DNA from: Vibrio ziniensis
GTDB lineage: Bacteria > Pseudomonadota > Gammaproteobacteria > Enterobacterales > Vibrionaceae
Reading direction: 5' to 3'
DNA: 64,000 nucleotides
Assembly: GCF_011064285.1 (NCBI RefSeq)
Contig: NZ_CP049331.1
Span: forward strand, 1,178,001-1,242,000
Both the position numbers and the translations under genes were made by a program. The notes below the pieces were generated by a model, which was given only the letters and a program-made list of their open reading frames with translations, was not told where the DNA came from and did no database searches. Numbering within the stretch: position 1 is the first letter of the stretch; each line of letters starts with the position of its first letter. Shown in pieces: positions 14,992 to 38,240 of this stretch.

Positions 14992-15903
14992 TTAAGCCAT
15001 CTTGATCCCTTCAAGGTGGCTTTTGCATTGCTGTCTTGCGGTTGCGAAAAACGTTTGTAAGTAACGTTTTTCTTTTTCACTATTACGTACGGCTGCAAAT
15101 AATCGTCGCCATAAGCCGTTACCGAGCGGTTTACTGGTAATCAATCCTTGGCGCGAAAATTCACTGATTGCCCAATTAGGTAAAGCTGCGACCCCTAAAC
15201 CTGCTGAGACCATTTGTACGAGCATCAACGTATTGTCTGCTTGTTTCCACTTAGCTGGTTCTACACCAGCTGGCTGCAGGAAGTGCTTTACTACATCTAA
15301 ACGTTGTTTCTGTACTGGGTAGCTTAACAACGTTTGATCCACCAAGTCTTCTGGCTCAATCCATTCTTTGCTTGCAAGAGGGTGGTTAGTTGCGGTGATT
15401 AAGCGCATTTCAAAATCAAACAGCGGCTCATAGTGTACTTCTGAACGCGGAAGGATGTCGGAGGTAATCACTAAATCCAGTTCACCCGCTAATAAGGCGG
15501 GTAAAGGTTCAAAACCAAAACCAGAGGAAAAGTCTAAAGCAACACTTGGCCACGCAACTTGATATTCTCTTAACGCAGGCATAAGCCACTGGAAACAGGA
15601 GTGGCATTCAATCGCCATATGCAGTCTGCCGTTCACATCTTCTTTTAAGCTTGCTAGTTCATTCTCAGCTTTTGCAATTTTCGGCAAAATGTCATCCGCC
15701 AGTTTAAGCAGAATTTCACCTTCGGATGTGAACTTAACCGGGCGGGTTTTTCGTAGGAAAAGTTGTCCTCCTAGCCTCGCTTCAAGATCTTTGATCTGAT
15801 GAGAAAGAGCTGATTGAGTTAAATGTAGTGATGTTGCAGTGGACGTCAATGACCCAGTGTCACGTAGCGACGCAATCGTGCGTAAATGTTTTAGCTCTAT
15901 CAT
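14992..15903 (-). CDS. metR: MetR, LysR-type regulator of methionine genes
   Basis: A 303-residue LysR-family regulator with an N-terminal winged helix-turn-helix (about 1-60; SLTSTATSLHLTQSALSHQI) and a periplasmic-binding-protein-like effector domain (about 90-295). The overall sequence fits MetR, which senses homocysteine and activates metE and other methionine genes. GAGGAAATCTC precedes the ATG. A MetJ-type operator with a perfect AGACGTCT lies 69-84 bases upstream. In relatives metE is the divergent neighbour; here a ParM gene stands in that place and metE is about 38 kb away. Confidence 0.9.
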   Translation of the reverse strand: MIELKHLRTIASLRDTGSLTSTATSLHLTQSALSHQIKDLEARLGGQLFLRKTRPVKFTSEGEILLKLADDILPKIAKAENELASLKEDVNGRLHMAIECHSCFQWLMPALREYQVAWPSVALDFSSGFGFEPLPALLAGELDLVITSDILPRSEVHYEPLFDFEMRLITATNHPLASKEWIEPEDLVDQTLLSYPVQKQRLDVVKHFLQPAGVEPAKWKQADNTLMLVQMVSAGLGVAALPNWAISEFSRQGLITSKPLGNGLWRRLFAAVRNSEKEKRYLQTFFATARQQCKSHLEGIKMA

Positions 15904-16238: not shown

Positions 16239-17267
16239 ATGACTAATACTTTGATGAAATTTGCTGTTGATGATGGTTCAACAAACGTAAAAGTAAGTTG
16301 GTTGGCTGACGGTGAAATTAAAAGTTTGGTGTCACCAAACTCATTTAGAAAAGATTGGAAGAGTGCAGCGTTAAGAAACGATAAAAAAGTCTACAACTAT
16401 ACCATTGATGGCTTTAAATACACTTACGATGCAACGTCTGATAAAGCATTAGAAACAACACACGTTGATTATCAGTACGATGATTTGAACTTACTGGCGG
16501 TTCATCATGCACTTCTACAAACTGGTTTAGAACCTTGTAATGTGTCTTTGGTTGTGACTTTACCGATCACCGAATACTACCGTTTTGAAGATTGCCAAAA
16601 GAATGAGAAGAACATTGAACGCAAGCGCCAAAACCTGATGCGCGAAATTTCACTGAACAAAGGTGAAACGTTCAACGTGGTAGAAGTTGAGGTGATGCCT
16701 GAAAGTTTACCAGCGGTGTTATCAACTCTAGTGAACTCCAACTGCAATGAGTTTACTCGCTCGCTGGTTATTGACTTAGGCGGAACCACTTTAGACATGG
16801 GTATCGTTGTCGGTGAGTTCGATGAGGTGTCTGGCGTCTACGGCAACAACGAAATCGGTGTATCTATGGTCACCAATACCGTTCGCAAAGCATTGGCGTT
16901 TGCGGACAGTGACTCAAGTTACTTAGTGGCTAACGAACTAATCCGCCGTCGACATGATGATGAATTTGCATCGGAAGTGATTAACGACGAATCTCAAATC
17001 GAGATGGTTCGTGAAAAAATGAACGCGAAAATTCACGAACTTGGCAAACAAGTCGTTACCGAAGCGAAGAAATTTGCTAAAAACCCGAACCGAGTTTATT
17101 TAGTTGGCGGTGGTGCAACGTTAATTTTTGATGCGGTAAAAGAAGCGTACCGAACGTTGGGTGATCGCGTGATCCTTGTTGATAATGCACAGTCTGCACT
17201 GGCACAGGAAATGTGTTTGTATCACGCAGATGAAAACAACAGCGCAGAGGCTGGTAGTGATGAATAA
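16239..17267 (+). CDS. parM: ParM-type actin-like ATPase
   Basis: A 342-residue bacterial actin very similar to ParM (StbA) of plasmid R1. Actin-fold motifs can be read: phosphate 1 loop VDDGSTNVKV (near residue 10), PLTEYYR-like loop LVVTLPITEYYRFED (near 110), phosphate 2 loop VIDLGGTTLDMG (near 180) and adenosine loop YLVGGGATLI (near 290). ParM polymers push plasmid copies apart through a ParR-DNA cap. The start has AAGG ten bases upstream. It overlaps the next gene by 8 bases (ATGAATAA), which points to coupled production of the partner. Plasmid-type ParM genes are unusual on a chromosome and no replication gene is near. Confidence 0.9.
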   Translation: MTNTLMKFAVDDGSTNVKVSWLADGEIKSLVSPNSFRKDWKSAALRNDKKVYNYTIDGFKYTYDATSDKALETTHVDYQYDDLNLLAVHHALLQTGLEPCNVSLVVTLPITEYYRFEDCQKNEKNIERKRQNLMREISLNKGETFNVVEVEVMPESLPAVLSTLVNSNCNEFTRSLVIDLGGTTLDMGIVVGEFDEVSGVYGNNEIGVSMVTNTVRKALAFADSDSSYLVANELIRRRHDDEFASEVINDESQIEMVREKMNAKIHELGKQVVTEAKKFAKNPNRVYLVGGGATLIFDAVKEAYRTLGDRVILVDNAQSALAQEMCLYHADENNSAEAGSDE

Positions 17268-18318
17268 ACGCTTTAAACGCGTATCACTAGCGATCTACCT
17301 CGACCCACTGCAATCTATCCCTGATAGCTTTGCATATAACACCTTTATTGGTTGGTCGAAAAAGCGCAAAGAACTCGCAGCGGATGCCACCGCTGCTATG
17401 GAACTGCACCAGTTAGTCCATATTCATAAAGATATCTATATGAGCGGGATGTTTCTGCACTGCTTAAAACCAGAATTGGCTACTAGCTTTGCAGCGGCAC
17501 TGTCCAATGATTCAATTACCGAGCAATCACTGCTCGATATTCTGAAAGTTCACCAAATTTATCCGCATAGTGTTCAAAATGGCATCAATGAGGGTGAAGT
17601 CGCATCCGAAAGCAAATCTATCGATGTTGATGCTGTGATTGATAACGTATCGTCGAAGATTGAACATTTACTCGAAATGAAACTGTCAGAGCACTTGTCT
17701 CAGATTGATTTCTCGGCGGGTTCAATGCCATCTGTGCCTGATTTCACACACATCACTGAACATATGAGTTCCCAGTTGGCTCAACATCAACAATCGCTGG
17801 TGGAGCACATCGCTGCTCATGCCAATACTCAGTTTGAGAGCAAGATTGATGCACAGTCATTGAGCCAAGAAATTGTTAATTCAATGAGTGGTAAGTTTGC
17901 GGAAAACGAAAAGGCTCTACGTGACCTCATCACGTTGATGCCAAGCTCATCTTCAAACGACATTGATACACTAGCACTTAGCCAAGACATTGCGTCAATC
18001 ATTAGTAGCCAGCTTATTGAACATCAAAAACAATTGTTAGGCAGCTCATCTAACAGCGCGCAGATGCAACTCGTTGATCAGCAGGCTTTGAGTCATGATA
18101 TTGCTATGGCGATTGGCGATAAGCTTGACCATAGCCAGCAAATATCTGAACTAAAGAGTGTCGTGACCCAACAAAACACGCTAATCAATCAGTTAATGCA
18201 ACAAATCAGGCAGCAAGGTGGTGTTGTTACGACACCTGCAAACTTTGCAGAGCCTCAAGAATCTGTTGAAGAGCGCTTAGAAAAAGTACAGCGTTTGAAG
18301 AAGAAGGGAGTGTTTTAG
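17260..18318 (+). CDS. ParR-like adaptor with long repetitive C-terminal tail
   Basis: A 352-residue protein in the parR position. Residues 1-100 resemble R1 ParR: a short strand (KRVSLAIYLDP), two helices (ELAADATAAMELHQLV; LHCLKPELATSF) and a last helix (LLDILKVHQIYP), fitting a ribbon-helix-helix DNA binder. R1 ParR ends after about 117 residues. Here ~250 more follow, made of imperfect ~25-45 residue repeats around L-S-[QH]-[DE]-I ... L-x-[ED]-H-[QK], for example SLSQEIVNSM, ALSQDIASII and ALSHDIAMAI. These look like coiled-coil or helical rods. A basic tail (ERLEKVQRLKKKGVF) ends it. It probably links ParM filaments to DNA or another cargo. Confidence 0.65.
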   Translation: MNKRFKRVSLAIYLDPLQSIPDSFAYNTFIGWSKKRKELAADATAAMELHQLVHIHKDIYMSGMFLHCLKPELATSFAAALSNDSITEQSLLDILKVHQIYPHSVQNGINEGEVASESKSIDVDAVIDNVSSKIEHLLEMKLSEHLSQIDFSAGSMPSVPDFTHITEHMSSQLAQHQQSLVEHIAAHANTQFESKIDAQSLSQEIVNSMSGKFAENEKALRDLITLMPSSSSNDIDTLALSQDIASIISSQLIEHQKQLLGSSSNSAQMQLVDQQALSHDIAMAIGDKLDHSQQISELKSVVTQQNTLINQLMQQIRQQGGVVTTPANFAEPQESVEERLEKVQRLKKKGVF

Positions 18319-18337
18319 CCTTCGATTCTAACGAATA

Positions 18338-18366
18338 AAAAGCCAGCTTAAGCTGGCTTTTTTTGT
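18338..18366. terminator. bidirectional terminator between parM operon and flhB
   Basis: A perfect stem AGCCAGCTT / AAGCTGGCT is bordered by A's on the left and a long T run on the right. It lies between two converging gene groups and can serve both strands. Confidence 0.85.
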
Positions 18367-18437: not shown

Positions 18438-19556
18438 CTAATACCGAATGTTCTCTGGAATAGTGAAACTTGGCAGCTTGTTGGGTTTCGCTTGCTGCCC
18501 CTTTCTCCACGCCTGTAATTGCTGCACGTATTTCAGAATTTGAGCTACGGCTAAATACAGTTGGTTTGGAACCATTTGGTTAATTTGAGTAGTGTGGTAA
18601 ATCGAACGTGTGATTTCAGGTACTATCAGCACTTCAATTTGATGTTTGTCCGCTAAAGAACGTATATAGAAAGCCACTTCATCTTTTCCTTTCGCCACTA
18701 CGAATGGCGCTTCTGCTTTTGATATATCGTATTTGAGAGCAACAGCGTAGTGGGTTGGGTTCATTAGTACGACATCTGCCGTCGGCACCATTTTATTGGC
18801 AGAGTTACGCGCATACTGCATTTGAATTTGACGACGTCGCCCTTTGACCTCTGGGCTACCTTCTTGCTGCTTATGTTCTTGTTTTAGTTCTTCTTTTGAC
18901 ATCATCATCTGTTTATTAAACGTCATCTTTTGATATGGCAAGTCAATCAAACCGAAAATAACCGCAACAGAAATGAGCATGATGATGAGACTTACCAAGT
19001 TACCAAAAGCAATTTGTATAACTGTCTGGAAAGAAGCTCTAACGAGTCCGCTAATGATGCCTACATTGTTGTTGATAGTGATGTACAGCAAAGAAAGAAT
19101 GATGGAAATCTTGAGCACACTTTTTAAGAACTCAATAAAGGTTTGTTTTGAAAAAATACGCTTTAAACCAGATGCTGGATTGATCTTGGAAAACTTGGGA
19201 CTGATGGATTTGAAATTGAAGTTAAACCCGCCCAGAACACTACTCGCACCGACAGCCGTTAGAGTGATAAAAAGCATCATTGGGGCAAAAAGTTTAATCA
19301 GAATGAACAGCGCTTGGGCGAACATTTCGAGCATAGGATCGATATCGAAAATTGTTGTCGAGTCGAAGGTATAAGCCGTCTCGAATAACAAAAATATCGA
19401 TCGCTTAAGTTCTGCGCCATACATATAGAAGTAGCTGACGCCGACGATCATACAGATAGCAGTCGTAAACTCTTTGGCTCGGGCTACCTGACCTTCGGAG
19501 CGTGCCTTACTGAGTTTCTGGCTACTGGCCTGTTCGGTTTTATCTCCTTGGCTCAT
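18438..19556 (-). CDS. flhB: FlhB, flagellar export gate/switch protein (lateral type)
   Basis: A 372-residue inner-membrane protein of the flagellar type III export gate. An N-terminal basic stretch (KTEQASSQKLSKARSEGQV) is the FlhB/YscU family start, four membrane helices follow (about 30-210), and the cytoplasmic domain carries the autocleavage motif NPTH near residue 267. Cleavage switches export from rod/hook to filament substrates. It is the last gene of the minus-strand fliM-fliN-fliP-fliQ-fliR-flhB operon and follows fliR with no gap. A bidirectional terminator lies beyond. Confidence 0.95.
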   Translation of the reverse strand: MSQGDKTEQASSQKLSKARSEGQVARAKEFTTAICMIVGVSYFYMYGAELKRSIFLLFETAYTFDSTTIFDIDPMLEMFAQALFILIKLFAPMMLFITLTAVGASSVLGGFNFNFKSISPKFSKINPASGLKRIFSKQTFIEFLKSVLKISIILSLLYITINNNVGIISGLVRASFQTVIQIAFGNLVSLIIMLISVAVIFGLIDLPYQKMTFNKQMMMSKEELKQEHKQQEGSPEVKGRRRQIQMQYARNSANKMVPTADVVLMNPTHYAVALKYDISKAEAPFVVAKGKDEVAFYIRSLADKHQIEVLIVPEITRSIYHTTQINQMVPNQLYLAVAQILKYVQQLQAWRKGQQAKPNKLPSFTIPENIRY

Positions 19557-20330
19557 TTATAGACTCAATACGTAATTCATGTGGTCACGCATCTCGCTGA
19601 CCATATCAAAGAAAATATCGCCGACACCAAAAATAGAGAGCATCAAAGCGATCATGCCCAACAACATGGTCATCGGGAAACCCAATGTAAAAATGTTTAA
19701 TGAAGGAGCGATTTTTCCAAGGAAGCCAAAGGTGACGTTGCTAAGCATCATAGTTAACATGGCTGGAATGGCGATAATCAGTGCTGATGAAAACATCCAG
19801 CCGAACATGGCGAGGACGTGTTTAATACCTTCAAATGGATATTCAGTATCAAATGGCCACTGACGAAAACTGTCGACGAAGATATCTAAGACAATTAAAT
19901 GCGCGTCCAAAGAGAGGAACAGCAACATTGCTGTAATGTTGAAAATTCGAGCTGTGATCGGCACGCTCGCGCCACTGCTTGGGTCGTTCATTACCGCCAT
20001 TGCCAAACCCATCTGCATGGATACCGCTTGCCCACCGATACTGAAAATATTCATAAACAGCAGCACCACCATTCCAAGAATAAAGCCGAAACTAAACTGA
20101 TAAATAGCAAAGACATACGCTTGGATGGAAAACGGGTTGAATGAAGGTACGTTATCGATTATCCCTGCACACATGATCGAAAAGATCATAGGTAATAGGA
20201 TTCGCACCATCACAGGCACTCGCGTGTCACCGAAAAAAGGAACGATCAGAAAGAACCCTGAAAAGCGAACGAATGGCCACCAGACAAAGCCGAGCCATTC
20301 GGTAATTTGGGTAAACGTAAGATCGAGCAT
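19557..20330 (-). CDS. fliR: FliR, flagellar export gate protein
   Basis: A 257-residue membrane protein with about six hydrophobic helices (FVWWPFVRFSGFFLIVPFFG at the N-terminus). It forms the export gate with FliP and FliQ in the basal body centre. The length matches the family. It directly abuts flhB and follows fliQ by 15 bases in the same operon. Family recognition is firm from the overall pattern, including the loop SMQMGLAMAVMNDPSSG. Confidence 0.95.
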   Translation of the reverse strand: MLDLTFTQITEWLGFVWWPFVRFSGFFLIVPFFGDTRVPVMVRILLPMIFSIMCAGIIDNVPSFNPFSIQAYVFAIYQFSFGFILGMVVLLFMNIFSIGGQAVSMQMGLAMAVMNDPSSGASVPITARIFNITAMLLFLSLDAHLIVLDIFVDSFRQWPFDTEYPFEGIKHVLAMFGWMFSSALIIAIPAMLTMMLSNVTFGFLGKIAPSLNIFTLGFPMTMLLGMIALMLSIFGVGDIFFDMVSEMRDHMNYVLSL

Positions 20331-20345
20331 ACGGCGTGCGTTCTA

Positions 20346-20615
20346 TTACTGAGCCAAAGTTGGCACAGTGAAGAAAATGTATTCGAAGAACTCGGATACC
20401 TGCATGAGTAACCAGTGGCCAGCAAAAATGATGCTTAGCATGGTGATGATCAGCCTCGGGAAGAAGCTGAGTGTTTGTTCGTTGATCTGGGTTACTGCTT
20501 GAATAACAGCAACCAGTAAACCTACCAACAAGCTCGGTACAATCAGTACCGATACCATAGAGACAACTACCCATAGTGCACGAGCGACGATGGTGACGGA
20601 TACTTCAGGAGTCAT
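20346..20615 (-). CDS. fliQ: FliQ, flagellar export gate protein
   Basis: An 89-residue protein with two membrane helices (VVSMVSVLIVPSLLVGLLVAVIQAV and the second around IIFAGHWLLMQV) and the conserved block TQINEQTLSFFPR between them. It belongs to the FliPQR export gate. The start was set at the ATG at 20615, 2 bases after the fliP stop, behind a GGGGG stretch. An alternative start six codons earlier would overlap fliP. Confidence 0.93.
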   Translation of the reverse strand: MTPEVSVTIVARALWVVVSMVSVLIVPSLLVGLLVAVIQAVTQINEQTLSFFPRLIITMLSIIFAGHWLLMQVSEFFEYIFFTVPTLAQ

Positions 20616-20617
20616 GA

Positions 20618-21370
20618 TTAACCCCCAACCCAAAAGCTTTGTGACAAACTACCCAATAGCATGCCCCAACCATCAACGACAACGAATACAAGTAGTTTGA
20701 ATGGCAGTGAAACAATCAAGGGTGACAGCATCATCATACCCATAGACATCAATACGGATGCTACAACAAGGTCGATGATCAAAAATGGCAGAAACACCAT
20801 AAAGCCGATCTGAAAAGCAATTTTTAGCTCGCTGAGCACATAGGCAGGTAATAGTACCAAGAATGGAATGTCTTCTGGTTTTTCTGCTAAAGGTTCATCC
20901 GCGATTTTAGTTACCTGTTCAAGTGTTTGCGTTTGCGTCTGAGCCAGCATGTACTCGCGCAGTGGCACACTGCCTCTTTGTAGCGCGTCCACTAGAGTAA
21001 TTTCGCTATTGGCATAAGGTTGGTAGGCATTGTCGTAAATGTCTGTCCAAACAGGGCGCATAATTAAAATACTGAAGATCAAAGCTAGACCAACCAGAAC
21101 TTGGTTTGGTGGAGACTGTTGCAAGCCAAGAGCTTGTCTTAAGATACCTAACACGATGATGATGCGTGTAAAGCAGGTACACATGATGATAAACGCTGGA
21201 ATAAAACTCAGCATTGTCATCAAGATGAGGATTTGCAGTTTTACCGAGTATTCACTTGAGCCTGAAGCATCATTGATGGTGAATAAACTCAGTTCTGGTT
21301 CTGCAGCAGCCATGTTTGGCAACAATAAAAAAAGGATGACTGTTAGCCATCCTAAATATTTTTTATTCAT
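20618..21370 (-). CDS. fliP: FliP, flagellar export gate protein
   Basis: A 250-residue protein with a cleavable signal peptide (KKYLGWLTVILFLLLPNMAAA) and the family blocks FIIMCTCFTRIIIVLGILRQ and LGLQQSPPNQVLVGLAL, followed by C-terminal helices. FliP forms the core ring of the export gate. The start at 21370 lies 8 bases inside the end of fliN; longer versions are unlikely because they would place the signal peptide internally. No fliO gene is found between fliN and fliP, where it usually sits. Confidence 0.95.
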   Translation of the reverse strand: MNKKYLGWLTVILFLLLPNMAAAEPELSLFTINDASGSSEYSVKLQILILMTMLSFIPAFIIMCTCFTRIIIVLGILRQALGLQQSPPNQVLVGLALIFSILIMRPVWTDIYDNAYQPYANSEITLVDALQRGSVPLREYMLAQTQTQTLEQVTKIADEPLAEKPEDIPFLVLLPAYVLSELKIAFQIGFMVFLPFLIIDLVVASVLMSMGMMMLSPLIVSLPFKLLVFVVVDGWGMLLGSLSQSFWVGG

Positions 21371-21731
21371 GGCTTCCACTATCAACAAGGGACAAAACTT
21401 GAACACCGTATTTGCCATCCTTAGTGATAATGCTTCCTGTACCAAATAAAACGCCATTGATTTTTATATCAACCGGCTCGCCCTCATGCTTATCAAGCAT
21501 GATGACAGACGAAGGTTCAATTGCCATAACGTCTTTTAGAGGAAGGCTGCGTCTAGATACTTCAACAGTTACTTCAACAGGAATATCGCGGATCATACCG
21601 ATGTTAGACTTACTTGTTGGTGCATCCAAAGTATTTGGTGCTTTGTTTGATGTTAAAGCTGAATCTTGGGCATCAAAATCCAGATCGTCGCTCAACAAAT
21701 CAAGGTCATCTAATTGGTCTAAATCACTCAT
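21363..21731 (-). CDS. fliN: FliN, flagellar C-ring protein
   Basis: A 122-residue switch-complex protein. The first ~40 residues are an acidic, Asp/Leu-rich tail. The SpoA domain follows (IPVEVTVEVSRRSLPLKDVM to ITKDGKYGVQVLSL), which forms the base of the C-ring and binds export components. It overlaps both neighbours (fliM by 8 bases, fliP by 8 bases). In other systems FliN is the docking site for FliH; no fliH is in this window, so its partner would have to come from elsewhere. Confidence 0.93.
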   Translation of the reverse strand: MSDLDQLDDLDLLSDDLDFDAQDSALTSNKAPNTLDAPTSKSNIGMIRDIPVEVTVEVSRRSLPLKDVMAIEPSSVIMLDKHEGEPVDIKINGVLFGTGSIITKDGKYGVQVLSLVDSGSHE

Positions 21732-22485
21732 ACTTCACTCCAAATTGAGCATGTTCGTCAATCACGAGCTGACCTTTAAATAACATATTACCGTTTACTT
21801 TTACGTCAATTTGCTCGGGTTTTTGTAAGTTGATGATGTCGCCTACAGAGATTGTATCAAGATCATCAATAGATAGTTCTGTTCTCATTAGAATCGCACT
21901 GACATCGACAGGTACCTGCTTTAATGACGTGACAACTTCTTTTTGCGTAAATGGTTTGTATTTTCTTAAACCATTTGAGAAATATTTAAGAGAATCTTCA
22001 CTAAAAGTGATAAACATATTTTCATCAATATCACCTACAGTTAAATTACAATTAATTCTAATATCAGTATGTTTTATTTTTTCACACTGAATGGCTTTTA
22101 TATTTTCACTTGGGAATAAGCAGGTGATGATTTTAGTTACAAAGCGCTCAAAAAATTTTCTATGTGAAACTGTAATTGAATTATTGCTCACATTACCATC
22201 TGAATTATTTGTAGGAATATTCAGATGCTTGCAAAATAATTTATCCAAAGCTTTGATGGATAAAGAAAAAGAAATTATCCCGATATTGCTTATATCAAGA
22301 CAGATTTCATGTAAGTCTTCTTCTGAAGAGCCGTCTTCTCGTGGCTCTACTAGGACGGATACCCCATTAAAGGTACCGCGTAGCTGACGTCTGATTACGT
22401 TCGCATGTTCTTGAAGAAACTCAATAATCCTTTTCTTAATGGCAATTTTCGGATTGCCAATATCGGTTATTGCGATATGTTGCAT
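21724..22485 (-). CDS. fliM: FliM-like C-ring protein, short and divergent
   Basis: A 253-residue protein in fliM position. The C-terminal third is a SpoA domain (LKQVPVDVSAILMRTELS to QLVIDEHAQFGVKYE), as in FliM/FliN. It is about 100 residues shorter than standard FliM. It starts directly with IGNPKIAIKKRIIEFLQEH and lacks the N-terminal CheY-binding helix (usual core EIDALL). The middle domain is A/T-rich and very divergent, and I cannot see the usual GG motif for FliG contact. It is first in the minus-strand operon and transcribed away from flgB. It probably forms the C-ring of this flagellum without normal CheY control. Confidence 0.8.
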   Translation of the reverse strand: MQHIAITDIGNPKIAIKKRIIEFLQEHANVIRRQLRGTFNGVSVLVEPREDGSSEEDLHEICLDISNIGIISFSLSIKALDKLFCKHLNIPTNNSDGNVSNNSITVSHRKFFERFVTKIITCLFPSENIKAIQCEKIKHTDIRINCNLTVGDIDENMFITFSEDSLKYFSNGLRKYKPFTQKEVVTSLKQVPVDVSAILMRTELSIDDLDTISVGDIINLQKPEQIDVKVNGNMLFKGQLVIDEHAQFGVKYE

Positions 22486-22771
22486 GTAAATACTCCAAAG
22501 AACTAAACCGAATTATCAAGTTCGGAAATAGGCGGGCGATTATACATAAGCAAAATATTACTTCAAATAAAAACACCCATGATGTTCGTTAATATATTGC
22601 TATGTAAGGATTGTTAGGAAGATCTACGAGATAGTTTGGGATTAATCCTACATTAGATTTGAAGCGATTTATTTATAATGCAGATCATTAATGTTGAATG
22701 TTTTATTTTCAGGTTATGAATGCATCACGTATATAACCATGAAGAGATGATTAGGATTAAATTGTACATCT
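22486..22771. promoter_or_regulatory. divergent promoter region between fliM and flgB
   Basis: About 285 A/T-rich bases between the two large, divergently transcribed flagellar operons. A short inverted repeat CCGAA-N8-TTCGG lies at 22508-22525. I see no -24/-12 sigma-54 promoter (GG and GC spaced ten apart) on either strand, unlike the usual control of lateral genes by LafK. Both early operons must start here. Confidence 0.5.
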
Positions 22772-23119
22772 ATGATTAGTCTAGACGATGCTTTGGGTAT
22801 TCATCCCACAATGTTGCAATTTCGAACAGAGCGTACAGCGGTATTAGCATCGAATATTGCTAACGTAGATACACCTAATTACAAGGCAAAGGACGTTACT
22901 TTTAATGCGGTAATGTCAGAAATTGGTGGAGTGTCATCTACCCAAATTCAAACCGACACGCTTTACCGTATTCCGGTACAGCGTTCTCGCGATGGCAACA
23001 CGGTTGAACTTCAGTCAGAGCAAGCTCGTTTCGCGCAAAACAGCATGGAATATCACCAAAGTTTACAGTTCCTGAAATCGAAAGTGTCAGGTTTAAAGCG
23101 AGCGATTGAAGGTCAATAA
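22772..23119 (+). CDS. flgB: FlgB, proximal rod protein
   Basis: A 115-residue rod protein. The signature near the N-terminus is RTAVLASNIANVDTPNYKAKD, and the C-terminal helix NSMEYHQSLQFLKSKVSGLKRAI fits the family. FlgB joins the rod to the MS ring and export gate. It opens the long plus-strand operon flgBCDEFGHIJKL and beyond. The length is slightly below that of E. coli FlgB (138). Confidence 0.95.
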   Translation: MISLDDALGIHPTMLQFRTERTAVLASNIANVDTPNYKAKDVTFNAVMSEIGGVSSTQIQTDTLYRIPVQRSRDGNTVELQSEQARFAQNSMEYHQSLQFLKSKVSGLKRAIEGQ

Positions 23120-23161
23120 CGAGATCTGAAAAAGATCCAATAATTTTATTTAAGGGGCTCT

Positions 23162-23587
23162 ATGTCTTTTAACGGTATTTTCGAAACATCCGGTTCAGCT
23201 ATGACAGCGCAAACCATTCGCTTGAACACTATTTCAAGTAACTTGGCGAATGCTGACTCGGTCGCGAGCAACCCAAACGATGTATACAAACCACTTAAGC
23301 CAGTTTTTTCTGCTGCATTTAACTCATTATCTGCAGCACAAAAAGATCAGGGTTTAGTGCCTGTGAAAATTGCGGACGTTATCGAATTAGACGGTTTACA
23401 GCAAACTCGCTATGAACCAAATAACCCATTGGCTAATGAGCAAGGTTACGTTTACCACACTGGAATCAATGTGGTGAATGAAATGGCGGACATGATGTCT
23501 TCAACACGTAGTTTTGAAGCCAACGTTGAAGTGCTTAATAACGTGAAATCAATGCAGCAGTCGTTGATGCGAATTTGGGAGGTTTAA
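23162..23587 (+). CDS. flgC: FlgC, proximal rod protein
   Basis: A 141-residue rod protein with the family start (GSAMTAQTIRLNTISSNLANADS) and end (NVEVLNNVKSMQQSLMRIWEV). The AAGGGG ribosome binding site stands just ahead of the ATG. It follows flgB by 42 bases and is separated from flgD by only 3 bases. Confidence 0.95.
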   Translation: MSFNGIFETSGSAMTAQTIRLNTISSNLANADSVASNPNDVYKPLKPVFSAAFNSLSAAQKDQGLVPVKIADVIELDGLQQTRYEPNNPLANEQGYVYHTGINVVNEMADMMSSTRSFEANVEVLNNVKSMQQSLMRIWEV

Positions 23588-23590
23588 TCA

Positions 23591-24280
23591 ATGACTACAG
23601 TAGTCGCAGGTGCAGATACCAGAGTCACCGTTACTTCGGCAACCACTTCAGCATCAACAGTAACAGAAAACTTGAATAGTGCTGATTCTCTATATAACCA
23701 GTTCATCACTTTAATGGTGGCTCAGGTTCAAAACCAAGATCCATTAAATCCACAAGATGGTACGGAGTATGTCACTCAGTTAGCTCAGTTTGCTCAGGTA
23801 CAAAGTACCGAGAACATGGTTACCTTGCTTAATAATAACGCCATCATGATGGACAACTTGCAGGTGCTTACAACCGCAGATCTTGTTGGTCAGACGGTTT
23901 CTGTTCGCACTGATAGCTTAGACGCTGATGGTGAGACTACTTACAGTGGTTCCATTGAGCTCACGTCTGCATCGAACACAGTAACGCTTCAACTCACGGA
24001 TCAACAAGGTAATGTCACAAGCATCGCTTTAGGTAGCCAATCTGCAGGTATGGTTGATTTTGAAATTGATACAGCAGCGTTAGGTCTAGATGGTAGCTAC
24101 ACCATGGCGGTTTTGCTTGATGAAGGCCAAAGTTACACACCAGATATTATGTTGAGTGGTGTGGTTGAAATGGTCTCGATTCCATCTACGGGTGGTTCAA
24201 GTGTATTGACCATTAATGGTGTCGGTGACATCCCATTCTATGAAATTGCCTCTTTTGGGCAAAAAAGTACTAATAGTTAA
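23591..24280 (+). CDS. flgD: FlgD, hook cap / scaffold protein
   Basis: A 229-residue hook-assembly scaffold. The conserved block FITLMVAQVQNQDPLNPQDGTEYVTQLAQFA (about residues 40-70) is diagnostic, followed by a beta-rich Tudor/Fn3-like part. It caps the growing hook and is discarded on completion. The length is that of the family. Confidence 0.95.
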   Translation: MTTVVAGADTRVTVTSATTSASTVTENLNSADSLYNQFITLMVAQVQNQDPLNPQDGTEYVTQLAQFAQVQSTENMVTLLNNNAIMMDNLQVLTTADLVGQTVSVRTDSLDADGETTYSGSIELTSASNTVTLQLTDQQGNVTSIALGSQSAGMVDFEIDTAALGLDGSYTMAVLLDEGQSYTPDIMLSGVVEMVSIPSTGGSSVLTINGVGDIPFYEIASFGQKSTNS

Positions 24281-24295
24281 TCAAGAGAGTATTTT

Positions 24296-25492
24296 ATGAG
24301 TTTTAGTATTGCCCTAAGTGGTCTAAATGCCTCTAACCAAGAGTTAAGCACAATTTCAAACAACATTGCCAACTCAGGTACAACTGGCTTTAAAGAGTCT
24401 CGAACGGAATTCGGTTCAGTATATAACGGCGGAAAAGCGGGTGGTGTGCAAGTCAATGCGATTAGCCAAAACTTTGATGCATTAGGCTCAATTTCAAGTA
24501 CAGGCCGTACGTTAGATATGGCTTTGACTGGCGGTGGCTTTTTTGTCACTCAAGAGAGCAATGGACAGTTGAGCTATACCCGTAACGGCGCATTTTCAAT
24601 GAACTCGTCTGGTTATATTGTAACCAGTGCAGGCAGTTGCCTTCAGGGTTATCAAGTTGATGCCAACAATAACCTGTTAGAAGGTTCAATTGGTAACTTG
24701 AAAATTGATAGCGCATCTTTGCCAGCTAAGGCAACAGATAGCATGACGTTTACGTCTAATTTAGATTCACGTTCGGACATTATTGATACAGCAACCTATC
24801 CGTTTGACACTTCTGATTCAAACTCTTACTCAAATTCATACACGACACCTGTGTATGATTCATTGGGTAATGAACACACATTGACACAGTACTTTGTAAA
24901 AACTGGCGAGAATGAGTGGGCGATTCATGCTGTAGTGGATGGTGATACTTCAAACATTATTACTGAATCTCCAGTAACTTTTGATACCACAGGCAAACTG
25001 ACCTCGAACACTTCATATACCATTACTGCTTCTGCTGCAGGTGCGAACGGTCTAAATATCAATGTTGATATCTCATCCATGAGCCAATATGGCAGTGATT
25101 TTGTTGTATCGACAAACAGTGCAAACGGCTATACCGCAGGTGAGTTTTCGGATATTCGCATCGAATCTAATGGTATGGTTTATGCGACTTATAGCAATGG
25201 TCAATCATTACTACAAGGTCAAGTTGTGCTAGCAAGTTTCGCGGCTCCTCAAGAGCTCTTGCAATCAACGAGTACATCTTGGACGCAAACATATGGTTCA
25301 GGTAATCCAGTATATGGAATCCCTGGTTCAGGCCAGTTTGGTGAGTTGGCATCAGGGGCTCTTGAAAGTTCAAACGTTGATTTAACGGAAGAATTAGTGA
25401 GTTTGATGACTGCGCAACGTAACTATCAAGCTAATACCAAAACCATTTCTACATCAGATCAACTGATGCAGTCACTGTTCAACGCGGTTTAA
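24296..25492 (+). CDS. flgE: FlgE, hook protein
   Basis: A 398-residue hook protein with N-terminal SIALSGLNASNQELSTISNN, the block FGSVYNGGKAGGVQV, and the C-terminal rod-hook motif (SNVDLTEELVSLMTAQRNYQ). Polymerised FlgE forms the universal joint. The length equals that of E. coli FlgE (402). RBS AAGAGAG precedes the ATG. Confidence 0.95.
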   Translation: MSFSIALSGLNASNQELSTISNNIANSGTTGFKESRTEFGSVYNGGKAGGVQVNAISQNFDALGSISSTGRTLDMALTGGGFFVTQESNGQLSYTRNGAFSMNSSGYIVTSAGSCLQGYQVDANNNLLEGSIGNLKIDSASLPAKATDSMTFTSNLDSRSDIIDTATYPFDTSDSNSYSNSYTTPVYDSLGNEHTLTQYFVKTGENEWAIHAVVDGDTSNIITESPVTFDTTGKLTSNTSYTITASAAGANGLNINVDISSMSQYGSDFVVSTNSANGYTAGEFSDIRIESNGMVYATYSNGQSLLQGQVVLASFAAPQELLQSTSTSWTQTYGSGNPVYGIPGSGQFGELASGALESSNVDLTEELVSLMTAQRNYQANTKTISTSDQLMQSLFNAV

Positions 25493-25494
25493 TT

Positions 25495-26229
25495 ATGAAT
25501 CCTATTCTGTTTACCGCAGCTAAAGGTGCTGAGCGTGTCATGTTGGCTCAAGAAGTTAGAGCCAACAATATTGCACAAGTAAACACCGTTGGCTTTAAAG
25601 CGATTATGGAACACTCAACACCAATGAAACTTGATGGTTCAGGTTTTGAGTCTTCAACAACGACACGTACCAACTCTGCATCGAATAACTTTGCCCAAGG
25701 TACTGAAGTTCGTACTGATCGCGCTCTTGACGTGAAGATCAATGGTACAGGTTTCTTTGCTTTAGAAGGTAAGCAAGGTGAACCTGAAGAGCTATATACC
25801 CGTGCTGGTAACTTCAGTTTAACCTCAGAAGGCGAGCTGATGGTCGGCAACCGTCAAGTGTTATCTGACGGCGGTCCTATCGTTGTTCCTGAATATCAAG
25901 CAATCAATATTTCTGCTGATGGTGTGTTAAGCATCATTCCACCAGGTGGGGGGGCTGAAATGGAAGTTGCAGCGCTTAAGCTCGTTAATCCTGATTACTT
26001 TGATATGACACTAGATCGCTCAGGCCTATTTGTTGCCAAAAATGGCAATACATTAATGGCGGACCCAGATGTGTCGGTTCGTTCTGGATATTTGGAGTCG
26101 AGTAACGTTTCTAGTATCGATGAACTCGTTGGAATGATGTCTTTATCTCGCCAGTATGAGATGCAAGTTAAAGCAATGGCAACAGCATCAGACATTGACA
26201 AGATCGGCAACCAGTTGCTGAAAGCATAA
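25495..26229 (+). CDS. flgF: FlgF, rod protein
   Basis: A 244-residue proximal rod protein with start PILFTAAKGAERVMLAQEVRANNIAQVNT and end SSIDELVGMMSLSRQYEMQVKAM, both family blocks. It follows flgE by 2 bases and precedes flgG by 21 bases in the usual order. Confidence 0.95.
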   Translation: MNPILFTAAKGAERVMLAQEVRANNIAQVNTVGFKAIMEHSTPMKLDGSGFESSTTTRTNSASNNFAQGTEVRTDRALDVKINGTGFFALEGKQGEPEELYTRAGNFSLTSEGELMVGNRQVLSDGGPIVVPEYQAINISADGVLSIIPPGGGAEMEVAALKLVNPDYFDMTLDRSGLFVAKNGNTLMADPDVSVRSGYLESSNVSSIDELVGMMSLSRQYEMQVKAMATASDIDKIGNQLLKA

Positions 26230-26250
26230 TTAGAATTTAGTAGGTAGTTT

Positions 26251-27036
26251 ATGCACAGTGCATTAATGATTTCAAAAACCGGTATGGCAGCTCAAGATGC
26301 GAAGATGACTGCTATCTCGAACAACTTAGCGAACGTTAATACCGTCGGCTTCAAACGAGATCGCGTTCAATTTGAAGACCTGTTTTATGCAGTAGAAAAG
26401 CAAGCGGGCACAGGTACAGATGACCTCAACGTACATCCAACGGGTATCCAATTAGGTAACGGTGTACGCGTTGCTGGCACGGCTAAAGTGTTTACTCAAG
26501 GTAATATCAACAACACTTCGCAGCAATACGATCTAGCAATCATGGGTGATGGTTTCTTCCAAATCGAAGGTCCTGATGGTGAGATGCTTTACACACGTAA
26601 TGGTGAATTTCATGTGAACTCTGATGGTTCGATCGTGAACTCACAAGGCTATCTACTTCAACCAGAAATTACAGTTCCTGACGATGCGACATTAGTGTCG
26701 ATTGCTGAGGATGGCACGGTTACAGCCACTATTACTGGCGAAACAGAGCCGCAAAACTTAGGTGAAATTACTCTAGTTAAGTTTATGAACCCACAAGGTT
26801 TAACTGCGCTTGGTGGTAACTTGTTAGGTGAAACCGAAGCTTCTGGTGAAGCTATGGAACTTGCTGCGGGTACTGAAGGTGCGGGTTACATCAAACAGGG
26901 CGCTTTAGAAACATCAAATGTGCAAGTAGTTGAAGAGATGGTTGATATGATCTCTACCCAACGTGCGTACGAAATGAGCGCGAAGATGGTGAGTGCAGCA
27001 GATAACATGCTGCAATACCTAGCGAACCATACCTAA
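26251..27036 (+). CDS. flgG: FlgG, distal rod protein
   Basis: A 261-residue distal rod protein, length as in E. coli (260). The N-terminal SNNLANVNTVGFKRDRVQFEDL and C-terminal QVVEEMVDMISTQRAYEMSAKM are characteristic. The distal rod passes through the peptidoglycan and outer membrane rings made by the next two genes. Confidence 0.96.
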   Translation: MHSALMISKTGMAAQDAKMTAISNNLANVNTVGFKRDRVQFEDLFYAVEKQAGTGTDDLNVHPTGIQLGNGVRVAGTAKVFTQGNINNTSQQYDLAIMGDGFFQIEGPDGEMLYTRNGEFHVNSDGSIVNSQGYLLQPEITVPDDATLVSIAEDGTVTATITGETEPQNLGEITLVKFMNPQGLTALGGNLLGETEASGEAMELAAGTEGAGYIKQGALETSNVQVVEEMVDMISTQRAYEMSAKMVSAADNMLQYLANHT

Positions 27037-27040
27037 TTGA

Positions 27041-27748
27041 ATGGTTAGTTTTATGTGTTTAACAAACCTTGTAAGTATCGCTAAACGAGCAACCATCATT
27101 GGTTCGATTTTGTTATTGGTAGGTTGTGCGGGACGTGGCCAGGAATTCGTTCCACCAAAGCCGGATGACGAAGCCTATGCGCCCCCTGAATTGAACTACG
27201 AAGTTGAGCGGGTGAGCAAAGGTAGCCTTTACGCTGGCAATGCGTCTATGACGTTGTTCCAAGACCGTCGTGCATACCGCGTAGGTGATATCCTTACGGT
27301 TGTATTGGATGAGAAAACAGAATCAGGCAAGAGCGCGACAACGAAATATGGCAAAAGCTCTGGTGCTTCTTTAACCGCGCCACTTTTTGGTGGTAAGTCG
27401 TACGACAAGTTGTCCGCTTCAGTAGATGGTAGCCGTGACTTCAATGGTAGCGCTGCATCTAAACAGGGTAACAGTCTTAGTGGATCTATCACTGTAACGG
27501 TTTATCAAGTTCTTCCAAATGGCGTACTTCGTGTTCGTGGAGAAAAGTGGCTTAAGCTAAACCAAGGTGACGAGTTTATTCGCCTATCTGGCAATGTGCG
27601 CGCAAGTGATGTTGGCTCAGGCAATACCTTGTCTTCACAACGTATTGCCGATGCTCGTATTACCTATGCAGGTCGAGGCACCTTTGCCGATACGAATACC
27701 GCAGGTTGGTTAACGCAGTTCTTCAATTCTCCGTGGGTACCGTTTTAA
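27041..27748 (+). CDS. flgH: FlgH, L-ring lipoprotein
   Basis: A 235-residue outer membrane L-ring protein. The lipobox LLLVGC ends a signal peptide at Cys29. The mature part contains the family blocks LTVVLDEKTESGKSATTKYGK and LRVRGEKWLKLNQGDEFIRLSG. The stop overlaps the flgI start by one base (TAATG). Confidence 0.95.
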   Translation: MVSFMCLTNLVSIAKRATIIGSILLLVGCAGRGQEFVPPKPDDEAYAPPELNYEVERVSKGSLYAGNASMTLFQDRRAYRVGDILTVVLDEKTESGKSATTKYGKSSGASLTAPLFGGKSYDKLSASVDGSRDFNGSAASKQGNSLSGSITVTVYQVLPNGVLRVRGEKWLKLNQGDEFIRLSGNVRASDVGSGNTLSSQRIADARITYAGRGTFADTNTAGWLTQFFNSPWVPF

Positions 27749-28872
27749 TGAGACAAAGATTTGATTTCAAACACTACGTTTTGGCAGTGTTTGGCTGCTT
27801 GTTTTTTGGTAACGCAACAGCTGTGCCGATTAGCCATATCACGGATGTATACGGTGACCGAACTAACCAGTTAATCGGCTATGGTGTTGTGGTTGGTTTG
27901 GATGGCACTGGTGATAAATCACAGGTTAAATTCACACAACAATCAATCGTTAACATGGTTCAACAATTCGGTGTTCAATTAGAAGATGGATCTAAGCCAA
28001 AAACAAAAAACGTTGCTGCTGTAAGCGTGACCGCGGTAGTAAGTTCTCACAAAGGTCCAGGTCAAACACTGGATGTTACGGTTGCTTCGATCGGTGATGC
28101 AAAAAGCCTTCAAGGCGGTACGCTACTGATGACTGAGCTAAAAGGTGTGGATGGTAACGTCTACGCTGTTGCTCAAGGTCATCTAATCGTGGGTGGCTAC
28201 AAAGTGACTGCTAACGATGGCTCTAGCGTGACCAACAATACTCCAACTGCAGCACGCATCCCCAATGGTGCAACATTAGAACGTGCGGCGATTGGCGCTG
28301 AAGATGACGACCCAACACTGCATTTGCAACTGAAAAAGCCACATTACCAAACTGCTTTAAACATTTCTAAAGTGATCAACAAAACGTTTGGTCGAGGTGT
28401 AGCAAAGGCGATCAATAAGGGGTTAGTCGAAGTTGCTGCACCAAGCGATAGCGAAGACCGCATAATGTTTTTGTCTATGATTGAACAGTTAGATGTTAAC
28501 GAAGGTGAAGCGCTACCTAAAATTGTCTTCAATTCACGTACGGGTACTGTTGTTATCAGCAAAGGTGTGACGGTTAGCGAAGCGATTGTTTCCCAAGGCG
28601 GATTAACTGTTTCAATTCGCGAAGACCAACTGGTATCTCAGCCTAACTCTGCGGGTAGCTTCAATGCTCCAGGTCAAACTACGGTTGTGAATGACTCTAA
28701 TATTTCGATTAGCGAAGTAGACAATGGGGCCATGGTTTGGCCAGAAGGAACACAATTACAAGAGATCGTTGATGCAGTAAACCGAATTGGTGCTTCACCA
28801 ATGGTATTGATGCAAATTCTGCAGGCACTTGATGAAGTGGGTGCAATTAATGGTGAATTGGTGGTGATCTGA
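27748..28872 (+). CDS. flgI: FlgI, P-ring protein
   Basis: A 374-residue periplasmic P-ring protein. The start at 27748 is used because it overlaps the flgH stop and gives a proper signal peptide (RQRFDFKHYVLAVFGCLFFG, cleaved before VPISH). Diagnostic blocks are NQLIGYGVVVGLDGTGDK and GTVVISKGVTV. FlgA from this cluster would assist its assembly. Confidence 0.95.
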   Translation: MRQRFDFKHYVLAVFGCLFFGNATAVPISHITDVYGDRTNQLIGYGVVVGLDGTGDKSQVKFTQQSIVNMVQQFGVQLEDGSKPKTKNVAAVSVTAVVSSHKGPGQTLDVTVASIGDAKSLQGGTLLMTELKGVDGNVYAVAQGHLIVGGYKVTANDGSSVTNNTPTAARIPNGATLERAAIGAEDDDPTLHLQLKKPHYQTALNISKVINKTFGRGVAKAINKGLVEVAAPSDSEDRIMFLSMIEQLDVNEGEALPKIVFNSRTGTVVISKGVTVSEAIVSQGGLTVSIREDQLVSQPNSAGSFNAPGQTTVVNDSNISISEVDNGAMVWPEGTQLQEIVDAVNRIGASPMVLMQILQALDEVGAINGELVVI

Positions 28873-29453
28873 TGACTAATCCGATTACAGCAATTGAAAC
28901 TGCAAATGCATTGAATTCGGCAAACGTGGTTGAAAATATCGGTACAAATCCAAGACAAATGTCAGGTATTGCTGATTATTCTGTGTTGAATTCTGTTCCT
29001 GTTGTTCAGTCATTATCAAGTGATGCAAATCATGTTACTCGTACGGAACAACAAGTAATGACGTCGTCGTTAAACCAAAATATTGCGTCAATTTACGACG
29101 GAGCATTGCTTTCAACCGGTGATATTTCATCACTAAAATTTGACGATAATTCAGCCTTGCAATTCGATCCAACATCGTTGAACTCTCTGAAATATCACGA
29201 GGATGAAGATGGCGCATTGCGAGAAGTTGCAAAACAGTTTGAAGCTATTTTTGTTCAAGAAATGCTTAAGCGAATGAGAACGGCAACTGAAGCTCTGGGT
29301 GATGAAGAAAACCCACTATCAAATAACTCAAACGGGATGTTTCAAAGCCTATTAGATAATCAGATGGCTATCTCCGTGACTAAGAAAAGCTCATTTGGTC
29401 TTGCAGAACTGCTGTATCAGCAGTTATCAGGTCAATCTGCTAGGAGTGTATAA
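28872..29453 (+). CDS. flgJ: FlgJ, rod cap protein without muramidase domain
   Basis: A 193-residue FlgJ limited to the rod-scaffold domain. The family block is LREVAKQFEAIFVQEMLKRMR, then GMFQSLLDNQMAISVTKKSSFGLAELLYQQL. The C-terminal glucosaminidase/muramidase domain that makes classical FlgJ about 300-330 residues is missing. Another enzyme must open the cell wall for the rod, perhaps that of the polar system. It starts on the last base of the flgI stop. Confidence 0.93.
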   Translation: MTNPITAIETANALNSANVVENIGTNPRQMSGIADYSVLNSVPVVQSLSSDANHVTRTEQQVMTSSLNQNIASIYDGALLSTGDISSLKFDDNSALQFDPTSLNSLKYHEDEDGALREVAKQFEAIFVQEMLKRMRTATEALGDEENPLSNNSNGMFQSLLDNQMAISVTKKSSFGLAELLYQQLSGQSARSV

Positions 29454-29455
29454 CA

Positions 29456-30832
29456 ATGAGTATGTATAGCATTGGTTTGTCAGGTTTAATGGCTAATCAA
29501 ATCGCCATGAACGTGACTGCGCAAAATACTGCCAATATGACAGTAACTGGGTACACGCGAAAAACGGTTGAGCAAGCAACAGTTGTATATGGTGGTTCTG
29601 GGAACCATGGCGCTGGAGATGGAGTTACTGTTGCGAGTATTCGCCGTGTTTCTGATCAAGCTGCAATTAATCGTTTACGTCTTGCTGGACAAGAAATGCA
29701 GTATTCACAAACTTACATGGTTGGTATGCAAGGGCTAGAAAATATTCTAGGCATGGAAGGCTTGAATATTAGCACTGGATTTGATGAATTTTTTGCAGCT
29801 CTCGATGAGTCGACACTCAGCCCAGAGTCTGTGGTTTACCGTAATCAAATTCTTTCGGCAGCAAAAAACTTAGCGGCACGTTTCAATGGTTCTATGAGTC
29901 AAGTTGAAACGGAATTAAGTACTTTAATGCAATCGCAAAATCAGTCGATTGAAACCTTGAATACTCAATTGCAAAACATTGCAAAAATCAATGAACAGAT
30001 TCGAGCAGCTTCTGGTCAAGGGCAAGATATTTCTAGTTTGCAAGATGCTTTAGATCTCCAGCTAAATGAAATTTCTAAATCCGTTGGTGTCAGTGTTTTA
30101 ACCAATAGCGATGGCACAGTAGAGATAGCAACTAAATCTGGGCAGCCACTCGTTTCTGGAACCAATGTTGCGCAAATTTCGTTAGATTCATCTGTTGGTG
30201 GTGCATATAACACCGACCTTTTACTGACATTTAATGGCCAAACGGTGTCATTTAATAATCCGAAAGGTGGTGAGCTTGGAGCCATCGAAGATCTGGCGAC
30301 AGAACAATACCTTCCTATGATGGAAGACCTGAACAATATTGCGGCAGGTTTTGCTGATGCAGTAAATGCGTTGTTAACAGGTAATTCAGCAACAGATCTA
30401 AATGGTAATCCAGGTCAAGCATTGTTTAGCTACGATCCGAATAACCCGGCCAGTTCTTTGACTATTACGGGAATTACCGCTGAAGAGTTAGCGTTATCTG
30501 AAACAGGTAGTGTTGGCGATGGAGGTATTGCTTTAGCAATATCTGACTTTGCGAACCAGACCGTTACAATTGGTGGTGTTGATACCAACGTTTACGACGC
30601 TTACGCGAAAATCATAGGTTATGTTGGTGCTGCAACACAGCAAGCACAGAACAACTACAACACAGCTTCTATCACTATCAGTGAAGCGCAATCTGCACGA
30701 GATAGCATTAGTGCTGTTAGCTCGGATGAAGAGGCTGCGAATCTGCTGATGTATATGAATGCCTACCAAGCCAACATGAAGGTTATATCTACAGCTAGCC
30801 AAATGTTTGACACAGTCCTCAACTCATTTTAA
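29456..30832 (+). CDS. flgK: FlgK, hook-filament junction protein 1
   Basis: A 458-residue hook-associated protein. The N-terminal block (IGLSGLMANQIAMNVTAQNTANMTVTGYTRKTV) and the C-terminal block (SDEEAANLLMYMNAYQANMKVISTASQMF) are clear. It is shorter than E. coli FlgK (547), mainly in the surface domain. It forms the junction with FlgL between hook and filament. Confidence 0.93.
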   Translation: MSMYSIGLSGLMANQIAMNVTAQNTANMTVTGYTRKTVEQATVVYGGSGNHGAGDGVTVASIRRVSDQAAINRLRLAGQEMQYSQTYMVGMQGLENILGMEGLNISTGFDEFFAALDESTLSPESVVYRNQILSAAKNLAARFNGSMSQVETELSTLMQSQNQSIETLNTQLQNIAKINEQIRAASGQGQDISSLQDALDLQLNEISKSVGVSVLTNSDGTVEIATKSGQPLVSGTNVAQISLDSSVGGAYNTDLLLTFNGQTVSFNNPKGGELGAIEDLATEQYLPMMEDLNNIAAGFADAVNALLTGNSATDLNGNPGQALFSYDPNNPASSLTITGITAEELALSETGSVGDGGIALAISDFANQTVTIGGVDTNVYDAYAKIIGYVGAATQQAQNNYNTASITISEAQSARDSISAVSSDEEAANLLMYMNAYQANMKVISTASQMFDTVLNSF

Positions 30833-30841
30833 TAGGAGACA

Positions 30842-31750: not shown

Positions 31751-31753
31751 TTT

Positions 31754-32587: not shown

Positions 32588-32631
32588 AAATTTGTACGCT
32601 TTTCAAACAGAAAGGTGAGAGGAGAAAAGTT

Positions 32632-32982
32632 TTGGAACTGACAGCCATAACTGGAATTGAACAATCAATGATCAATCGTCTGAACGAAAATCAGGCAATC
32701 ACTCAGAACCCATTAACTAAACTTGTCGAAATATCTGATAGTCGAGTAGGAATGTCCTCAAGCCTAGAGTTTGGCAGCACATTAAAAGGAATTTTTGATA
32801 CTGTTGACGCCCGCCAAAAAACAGCTGACGCAAAAATTACGGCAGTTGAACTAGGTCAAAGTGATGACCTTATTGGCGCGACAGTGGCTGCGCAGAAAGC
32901 GCAGCTTTCTTTTTCAGCATTAATGCAAGTTCGAAACAAGATGGTGACGAACTTTAATGACATCATCAAGATGTCGGTTTAG
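32632..32982 (+). CDS. fliE: FliE, rod/MS-ring junction protein (TTG start)
   Basis: A 116-residue protein that joins the MS ring to the rod. The C-terminal block LIGATVAAQKAQLSFSALMQVRNKMV is diagnostic. The start is TTG at 32632, backed by AGGAGAAAAG; the next ATG (32668) has no binding site. It leads the fliE-fliF-fliG group 44 bases after motY. Confidence 0.92.
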   Translation: MELTAITGIEQSMINRLNENQAITQNPLTKLVEISDSRVGMSSSLEFGSTLKGIFDTVDARQKTADAKITAVELGQSDDLIGATVAAQKAQLSFSALMQVRNKMVTNFNDIIKMSV

Positions 32983-33001
32983 TGGCGATAGGCGTTAATA
33001 T

Positions 33002-35712: not shown

Positions 35713-35724
35713 GGTTAGTGTCCT

Positions 35725-38218: not shown

Positions 38219-38240
38219 GTATCTGGTGAGTTTCTACTTA

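Follow-up and report, generated by a model that had tools for sequence, protein, structure and literature searches.

A chromosomal ParM/ParR-like gene pair in Vibrio ziniensis and its relatives is associated with a second flagellar system

The closest described relatives of the gene pair reported here are the partition systems ParMRC of plasmid R1 and StbAB of plasmid pB171. Bacteria also place flagella or chemosensory arrays by nucleoside triphosphatases, namely FlhF/FlhG and the ParC/PpfA-type systems, which are signal recognition particle (SRP)-GTPases or ParA/MinD types and not actins, whereas MamK, the bacterial magnetosome actin, places a non-DNA cargo but belongs to another actin family and works with another cargo adaptor. 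To our knowledge, the placement and inheritance of many lateral flagella are poorly understood. Here we analyze parM and a parR-like adaptor gene located in a 64,000-nucleotide stretch of the Vibrio ziniensis genome (contig NZ_CP049331.1, positions 1,178,001 to 1,242,000, forward strand; hereafter the window). Since this pair occurs, in the related bacteria examined, almost only in genomes that have a second flagellar system, our data suggest that it was recruited to serve that system. With ParMRC and StbAB it shares the ParM sequence and its motifs, the overlapping or adjacent parM-parR order, a ParR-type N-terminal domain and an adaptor tail that resembles those of some plasmid ParRs. It differs from them in its chromosomal location, its longer adaptor with an insertion of ~15 residues, the absence of upstream iterons and its tie to flagella. 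Having no parC iterons upstream and not being plasmid-borne, the pair does not qualify as a ParMRC plasmid partition locus.

Chromosome-encoded ParMRs (cParMR) were described in 2025 (Ali et al., PMC12270681). They too are ParM/ParR systems on chromosomes, kept within genera and proposed to act beyond plasmids, and the present pair is likewise chromosomal and genus-kept, 20 of the 37 Aeromonas genomes carrying it. By contrast, sections of that study name Firmicutes and one Burkholderia, ascribe a parC to Cb-cParMR and draw no flagellar link; its main text nowhere uses the names Vibrio, Aeromonas, Photobacterium or Shewanella. A table in a Citrobacter koseri genome paper (PMC13268207) lists as unknown a 180-residue ParR whose locus tag shortly precedes those of flagellar genes of a second system, and neither ParM nor StbA appears as a word in the main text of a survey of additional flagellar loci across Enterobacterales (PMC7526173). 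No published connection between ParM and lateral flagella was found in the open-licence literature.

In the window, parM (16239..17267, forward strand) starts with ATG, ends with its stop codon at 17267 and encodes an R1-type actin-like ATPase of 342 residues. The protein matches the Pfam domains StbA_N (E 1.5e-65) and ParM C-terminal (E 1.2e-41) as well as the structure of R1 ParM (1mwk, E 1e-78), to which its nucleotide motifs align, including the phosphate, adenosine and catalytic Glu motifs. An earlier note on this DNA, drawn from the letters alone, had recognized this ParM and, behind it, a ParR-like gene with an 8-base overlap. Both are confirmed: the adaptor gene (17260..18318, forward strand, 352 residues) is an open reading frame overlapping parM by 8 bases, ATGAATAA, and its likeness to ParR emerges from profile matches of the family. 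The genome holds a single ParM copy, and the pair is chromosomal, the window lying in C1 and the adaptor's own protein entry on a 3.2-Mb contig.

Judged by its sequence, the pair is a member of a chromosomal ParM group of Vibrionaceae, Aeromonas, Enterobacteriaceae and others that stands apart from plasmid ParMs. Proteins of this group are 63-100% identical to that of the window. A tree of 75 ParMs, in which bootstraps are not fully settled and long branches are flagged, unites 59 chromosomal rows in one supported group (97/93) that includes none of the 11 plasmid/phage rows; some group names (Aeromonas, Photobacterium, Enterobacteriaceae) are inferred from tree neighbours and named relatives. 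Two rows of family f12 cluster with a V. breoganii plasmid ParM, and three loci labelled chromosomal beforehand (L098-L100) fall among plasmid types.

The distribution of this ParM was compared with that of extra flagellar systems, using the window FlhB (Pfam E 6e-113) as a probe. At least two FlhB are present in 70 of the 77 genomes with ParM, six others possess a single FlhB of lateral type and one has neither; without the two f12 genomes, which lie outside the 59-row ParM group, the association holds in 74 of 75. The six genomes with one FlhB (at 1e-60; G001, G179, G202, G699, G957 and G433) were assigned to the lateral type by score and alignment range. The single FlhB of G202 contains an internal stop, and a second FlhB of G001 is in pieces.

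Aeromonas provides the sharpest comparison. Among 37 genomes, lateral-type FlhB is found in all 20 with ParM versus none of the 17 without; 19 of the former have two FlhB and G699 only the lateral type, and all 17 of the latter have a single FlhB. The adaptor follows the same pattern (20/20 versus 0/17), split into two pieces in G699. When mapped on an rpoB tree covering 36 of these genomes (no rpoB was obtained for G701), the state changes 12 times, 10 of them on well-supported branches, and clusters no more than shuffled labels do. Phylogenetically independent pairs agree in 10 of 10 cases (p 0.002); when two FlhB copies are required, nine agree and one is without difference (p 0.004). In three closed Aeromonas genomes, parM and the lateral-type FlhB are 1.1-1.96 Mb apart, and present-day linkage therefore does not explain their co-occurrence. 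The same distances bear on the possibility that the pair stabilizes the island or replicon that carries the lateral flagella. ParM/ParR is a known plasmid maintenance device and the window cluster is island-like, but in addition to the Aeromonas distances, the pair lies on another contig than the lateral-type FlhB in the two-contig assemblies G007 and G148 and has no parC-like repeats upstream; we consider such a stabilizing role very improbable.

Vibrionaceae and Enterobacteriaceae display the same tendency, with at most six or seven candidates scored per genome, so that FlhB copies may be missed. The group's ParM is encoded in 34 of 329 Vibrionaceae genomes including the window's, in one of them as a split gene. 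At least two FlhB were counted in 30 of these 34 compared with 77 of the 295 genomes without it (Fisher p 1.5e-12, uncorrected for kinship), and a lateral-type FlhB was judged present in 33 of the 34, as the sole copy in G001, G179 and G202. In 295 sampled Enterobacteriaceae genomes, at least two FlhB occur in 14 of 15 with ParM versus 31 of 280 without; in the remaining one (G957), a sole lateral-type FlhB is encoded at a distance of 5 kb from parM. In these 15 genomes, the two genes are at most 44 kb apart in 12, ~0.6 Mb apart in two and on different contigs in one. Of eight further genomes, seven contain two FlhB and G433 one that is lateral-type by score.

Gene neighbourhoods point in the same direction. 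In five lineages the pair is part of a flagellar operon or adjacent to one, its position varying by lineage, and at least two flagellar genes were identified within 10 kb at 19 of 40 named loci (excluding L048, in which parM is split). In five species of Vibrio (the window, Y2-5, V. xiamenensis, V. furnissii and G348), parM-parR faces flhB, fliR, fliP and fliM. At 15 loci of Photobacterium and Enterovibrio, it is situated downstream of fliA, motA and motB, with fliK further up and, in all but one, fliD too; L026 has motB, flhA, flhB and fliR instead of these neighbours. The pair precedes fliP, fliR, flhB and flhA in a putative Ferrimonas (G089), where unscanned intervening genes read as fliM, fliN and fliQ, follows fliK, a sigma factor, motB and an NlpC/P60 gene in the Enterobacteriaceae genome G485 (G532 is alike), and adjoins homologues of FliE, FliF and FliG in the f12 genome G433. 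In Aeromonas, one Photobacterium group, V. mexicanus, V. amylolyticus and five further genomes (G007, G008, G198, G428 and G440), the surrounding 10 kb, or as much of them as the fetched stretch covers, yielded no flagellar gene; scanned neighbours at such loci are metabolic, transport or unknown genes and, at one Aeromonas locus, a chemoreceptor. The scattered neighbourhoods were initially taken to refute a flagellar link, a reading overturned by labelling the neighbours and counting FlhB. The suggestion that the pair is linked to flagella was thus upheld, both by operon position and by tracking of the second system across genomes, whereas the idea of an invariable companionship with this one cluster was not, given that Aeromonas and part of the Photobacterium and Vibrio genomes carry the pair at loci devoid of flagellar genes. 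We regard a functional coupling of the pair to the second flagellar system as well supported and very probably correct.

Conservation of the genes speaks to whether the pair still works. The tested catalytic and phosphate-binding residues are invariant in 59 of 59 rows of the clade, and the N-terminal motif is present in 56 of 59, the other three rows being shortened by the start call used. The ratio of nonsynonymous to synonymous substitution rates (dN/dS) is 0.010-0.062 for parM (13 species pairs) and 0.079-0.249 for parR (11 pairs with computable dS), with dS above 1 in several species pairs. Both genes are under purifying selection, which is strong on ParM; together with the invariant residues, this selection means that the pair is not a dead relic, as the intact motifs had led the earlier note to argue. 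Individual loci carry lesions, for which decay and assembly error were not distinguished: the adaptor gene is frameshifted in L033 (A. salmonicida) and L018 (Photobacterium sp.), and parM is split in L048 (V. aestivus).

A related scenario is that a plasmid brought the flagellar cluster along with its own partition genes, which have since persisted by linkage alone. The V. breoganii plasmid NZ_CP016179.1 (341 kb; L162, L163) lends it substance, because an RctB-type replication gene sits beside a ParM/ParR-like pair there and the plasmid also bears a large flagellar cluster; it may illustrate one way in which pair and cluster could have met. The island-like setting of the window cluster between metR and metE, with an insertion sequence at its end, also fits. 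Against persistence by linkage stand the strong purifying selection and the co-inheritance with an unlinked lateral-type FlhB in Aeromonas, a pattern that by itself already makes it unlikely. Plasmid relatives are also scarce: only one of the 5000 best-scoring plasmid records, a 2.1-Mb Photobacterium replicon, encodes a protein more than 60% identical to the window ParM. With the window adaptor as sole query, the plasmid search returned one record, a 2.1-Mb Photobacterium replicon, and the phage search nothing, and no plasmid replication gene was seen in Pfam or NCBIfam among the 32 window proteins scanned, the remaining open reading frames lying outside the scan, in line with the earlier observation from the letters. 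We therefore rate a hitch-hiking relic as distinctly unlikely; of the plasmid-relic idea put forward initially, the dead relic is disfavoured and a plasmid origin of the whole package is possible.

The adaptor consists of three parts. Taken singly, the window sequence has no credible match in Pfam, NCBIfam or the PDB, but the family profile matches pB171 ParR (2jd3, E 4.6e-4), and comparison with a profile of nine plasmid/phage ParRs by hhalign gives a probability of 94.1%. Together with the alignments, these matches delimit a predicted N-terminal ParR-like domain (17260..17571, forward strand), of ribbon-helix-helix (RHH) type by homology, with an insertion of ~15 residues relative to plasmid ParR. 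It is followed by a putatively helical, repeat-bearing linker of variable length (17572..18264, forward strand), delimited by the alignment, a low-confidence helical model and 31-nt repeats that, in the window, are spaced by 117 and 111 nt (37-39 residues). Intact chromosomal adaptors listed measure 159-358 residues; 9 of 11 plasmid/phage ParRs have 112-131, and the other two 159 (V. breoganii) and 223. The extra length is, according to the alignments, a variable and mostly helical linker. The conserved C-terminal tail (18265..18315, forward strand), identified by comparing the partner list, ends in KKKGVF in the window and is like the tails of some plasmid ParRs. Read by eye, the pattern basic-x-basic-[GKR]-[ILV]-[FW] terminates 59 of 61 adaptors, and the other two are frameshifted. 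A similar tail occurs in 5 of 11 plasmid/phage ParRs (L074, L117, L118, L119 and L121; e.g. KMKGLF, KLQGLL), and the V. breoganii ParR (L075) resembles the chromosomal tail loosely; BLASTP shows no likeness between this ParR and the f12 adaptor. Modelling of the full-length adaptor gave a poor structure (predicted template modelling score 0.27), and a fold search with it yielded no match with E below 1.6 and did not display the ParR-type N-domain.

An N-domain of this type invites explanations in which the adaptor binds DNA. In the first, the ParR-like protein would bind centromere-like sites on the chromosome, and ParM filaments would push sister nucleoids apart in long, multinucleoid, lateral-flagellated swarmer cells. 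This DNA segregation is the best fit to the N-domain; it accommodates the strong selection on ParM and, given that lateral flagella accompany swarming and swarmer cells, the tracking of lateral-type flagella. However, parC-like iterons exceed the shuffle maximum (20 shuffles per locus; L024, L028, L114 and L116 omitted for want of a start call) upstream of parM at 0 of 28 chromosomal loci versus 5 of 11 plasmid/phage loci, chromosomal sites elsewhere not having been sought, and the fact that several lineages carry the pair inside a flagellar operon also speaks against it, so that we hold it to be rather unlikely. In the second, the ParR-like protein would bind DNA to repress or activate the lateral flagellar genes, with ParM as its sensor or titrating partner. 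RHH-type domains are often regulators, and the pair is co-inherited with a second FlhB, but the conserved tail and the conserved ParM ATPase residues point to a filament adaptor, and no promoter motif shared upstream of parM emerged in a scan that constitutes a weak test. Such a regulator appears unlikely.

Our preferred reading is that the pair is an accessory of lateral-type flagella whose filaments spread or share out basal bodies along the cell. Based on homology and intact motifs, ParM would polymerize with ATP; the ParR-like protein would bind filament ends by its C-terminal tail, as its likeness to some plasmid ParR tails implies, and its N-domain, on a long flexible linker, would hold the cargo. 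The cargo is a guess; most likely, the filaments would spread or share along the cell the basal body of the lateral flagellum or the site of its assembly. Placement of lateral flagellar bases is our best guess insofar as it fits operon position and co-inheritance best. Taken whole, cargo included, this accessory reading falls somewhat short of an even chance. We propose more tentatively still that a plasmid-segregation actin was turned into a machine for placement and inheritance, with ParM filaments, capped by a long-armed ParR, spreading lateral flagellar bases in swarmer cells as an actin-based counterpart of the polar FlhF/FlhG. The earlier suggestion of a filament system taken over for another job stands as regards a live system tied to flagella; basal bodies, nucleoid and the island are all candidate cargoes.

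Several observations weigh against the preferred reading. The designation lateral-type is drawn from FlhB, judged by copy number and score. G198, a putative Thaumasiovibrio subtropicus, has the pair and a single FlhB that is polar-type by score. At least two FlhB are found without the pair in 77 Vibrionaceae and 31 Enterobacteriaceae genomes, and the pair is hence not required for a second system; nor is its pairing with the window-type cluster obligatory, as 14 of 19 Vibrionaceae genomes with window-type FlhB (at least 379 bits) lack the group's ParM. A ParR-like protein is also absent from 30 sampled Vibrionaceae without ParM, except for a single weak hit that covers only the coiled linker. 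The predicted RHH-type N-domain, being of a DNA-binding kind, suits a DNA cargo better than a protein cargo, and the tail of an R1-like ParR (L124) bears no visible likeness to the adaptor tail. Scans of 43 loci for sigma-28 and sigma-54 promoters revealed no shared flagellar-type promoter upstream of parM and no enrichment over shuffles, a weak test in which the window flagellar genes scored little better. As many Vibrionaceae encode additional FlhB copies but not the pair, the latter seems to be an accessory dependent on the second flagella, not vice versa. Being conserved, and being gained and lost along with a second flagellar system, this actin and its adaptor are a concrete, deletable candidate for lateral flagella placement. 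If true, they would clearly exemplify ParM/ParR with a job other than holding plasmids, and with a predictable phenotype.

In the window, the pair, its flagellar neighbours and, at one end, an IS3-like element appear to constitute a 38-kb island inserted between metR and metE (14992-56566), which are divergent neighbours in E. coli K-12. The left flank is metR (14992..15903, reverse strand; NCBIfam MetR 394 bits, cut-off 382), and the pair lies between it and flhB, as had been read from the letters. The second flagellar gene cluster (18438..51050, unstranded) contains flhB, fliR, fliP, fliM, flgE, fliF, fliG, flhA, flagellin, fliD, fliK, fliA, motA and motB, named by Pfam (fliA as a sigma-70 family factor), and others assigned by gene order only. 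At its right end are an IS3-like transposase pair (51340..52451, forward strand; Pfam HTH_Tnp_1 and rve) and, as the flank opposite metR, metE (54236..56566, forward strand). V. xiamenensis and G348 retain the junction between parR and flhB despite a differing left flank, which suggests that pair and cluster have moved together among vibrios. Three FlhB genes (C1:1196441, C1:2308698 and C2:62975) are encoded in the window genome, which may accordingly have three flagellar systems.

Downstream of the window parR lies an intrinsic-terminator-like repeat with perfect arms of 13 nt followed by a T run (18337..18362, forward strand). A long inverted repeat is conserved between the upstream gene and parM in Aeromonas (L022 8172-8215 and a further 20 loci, each from Aeromonas or placed within it, some species being counted twice). 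Since its pairing survives changes on both arms in L028, it is a candidate, unproven terminator or RNA hairpin. Towards the left end, the window contains two very large open reading frames (785-8950), the first encoding Ig and fiber domains like those of phage tail tips and the second without a Pfam match, and a Fic-family protein (12560-13156) that scores slightly below the NCBIfam cut-off.

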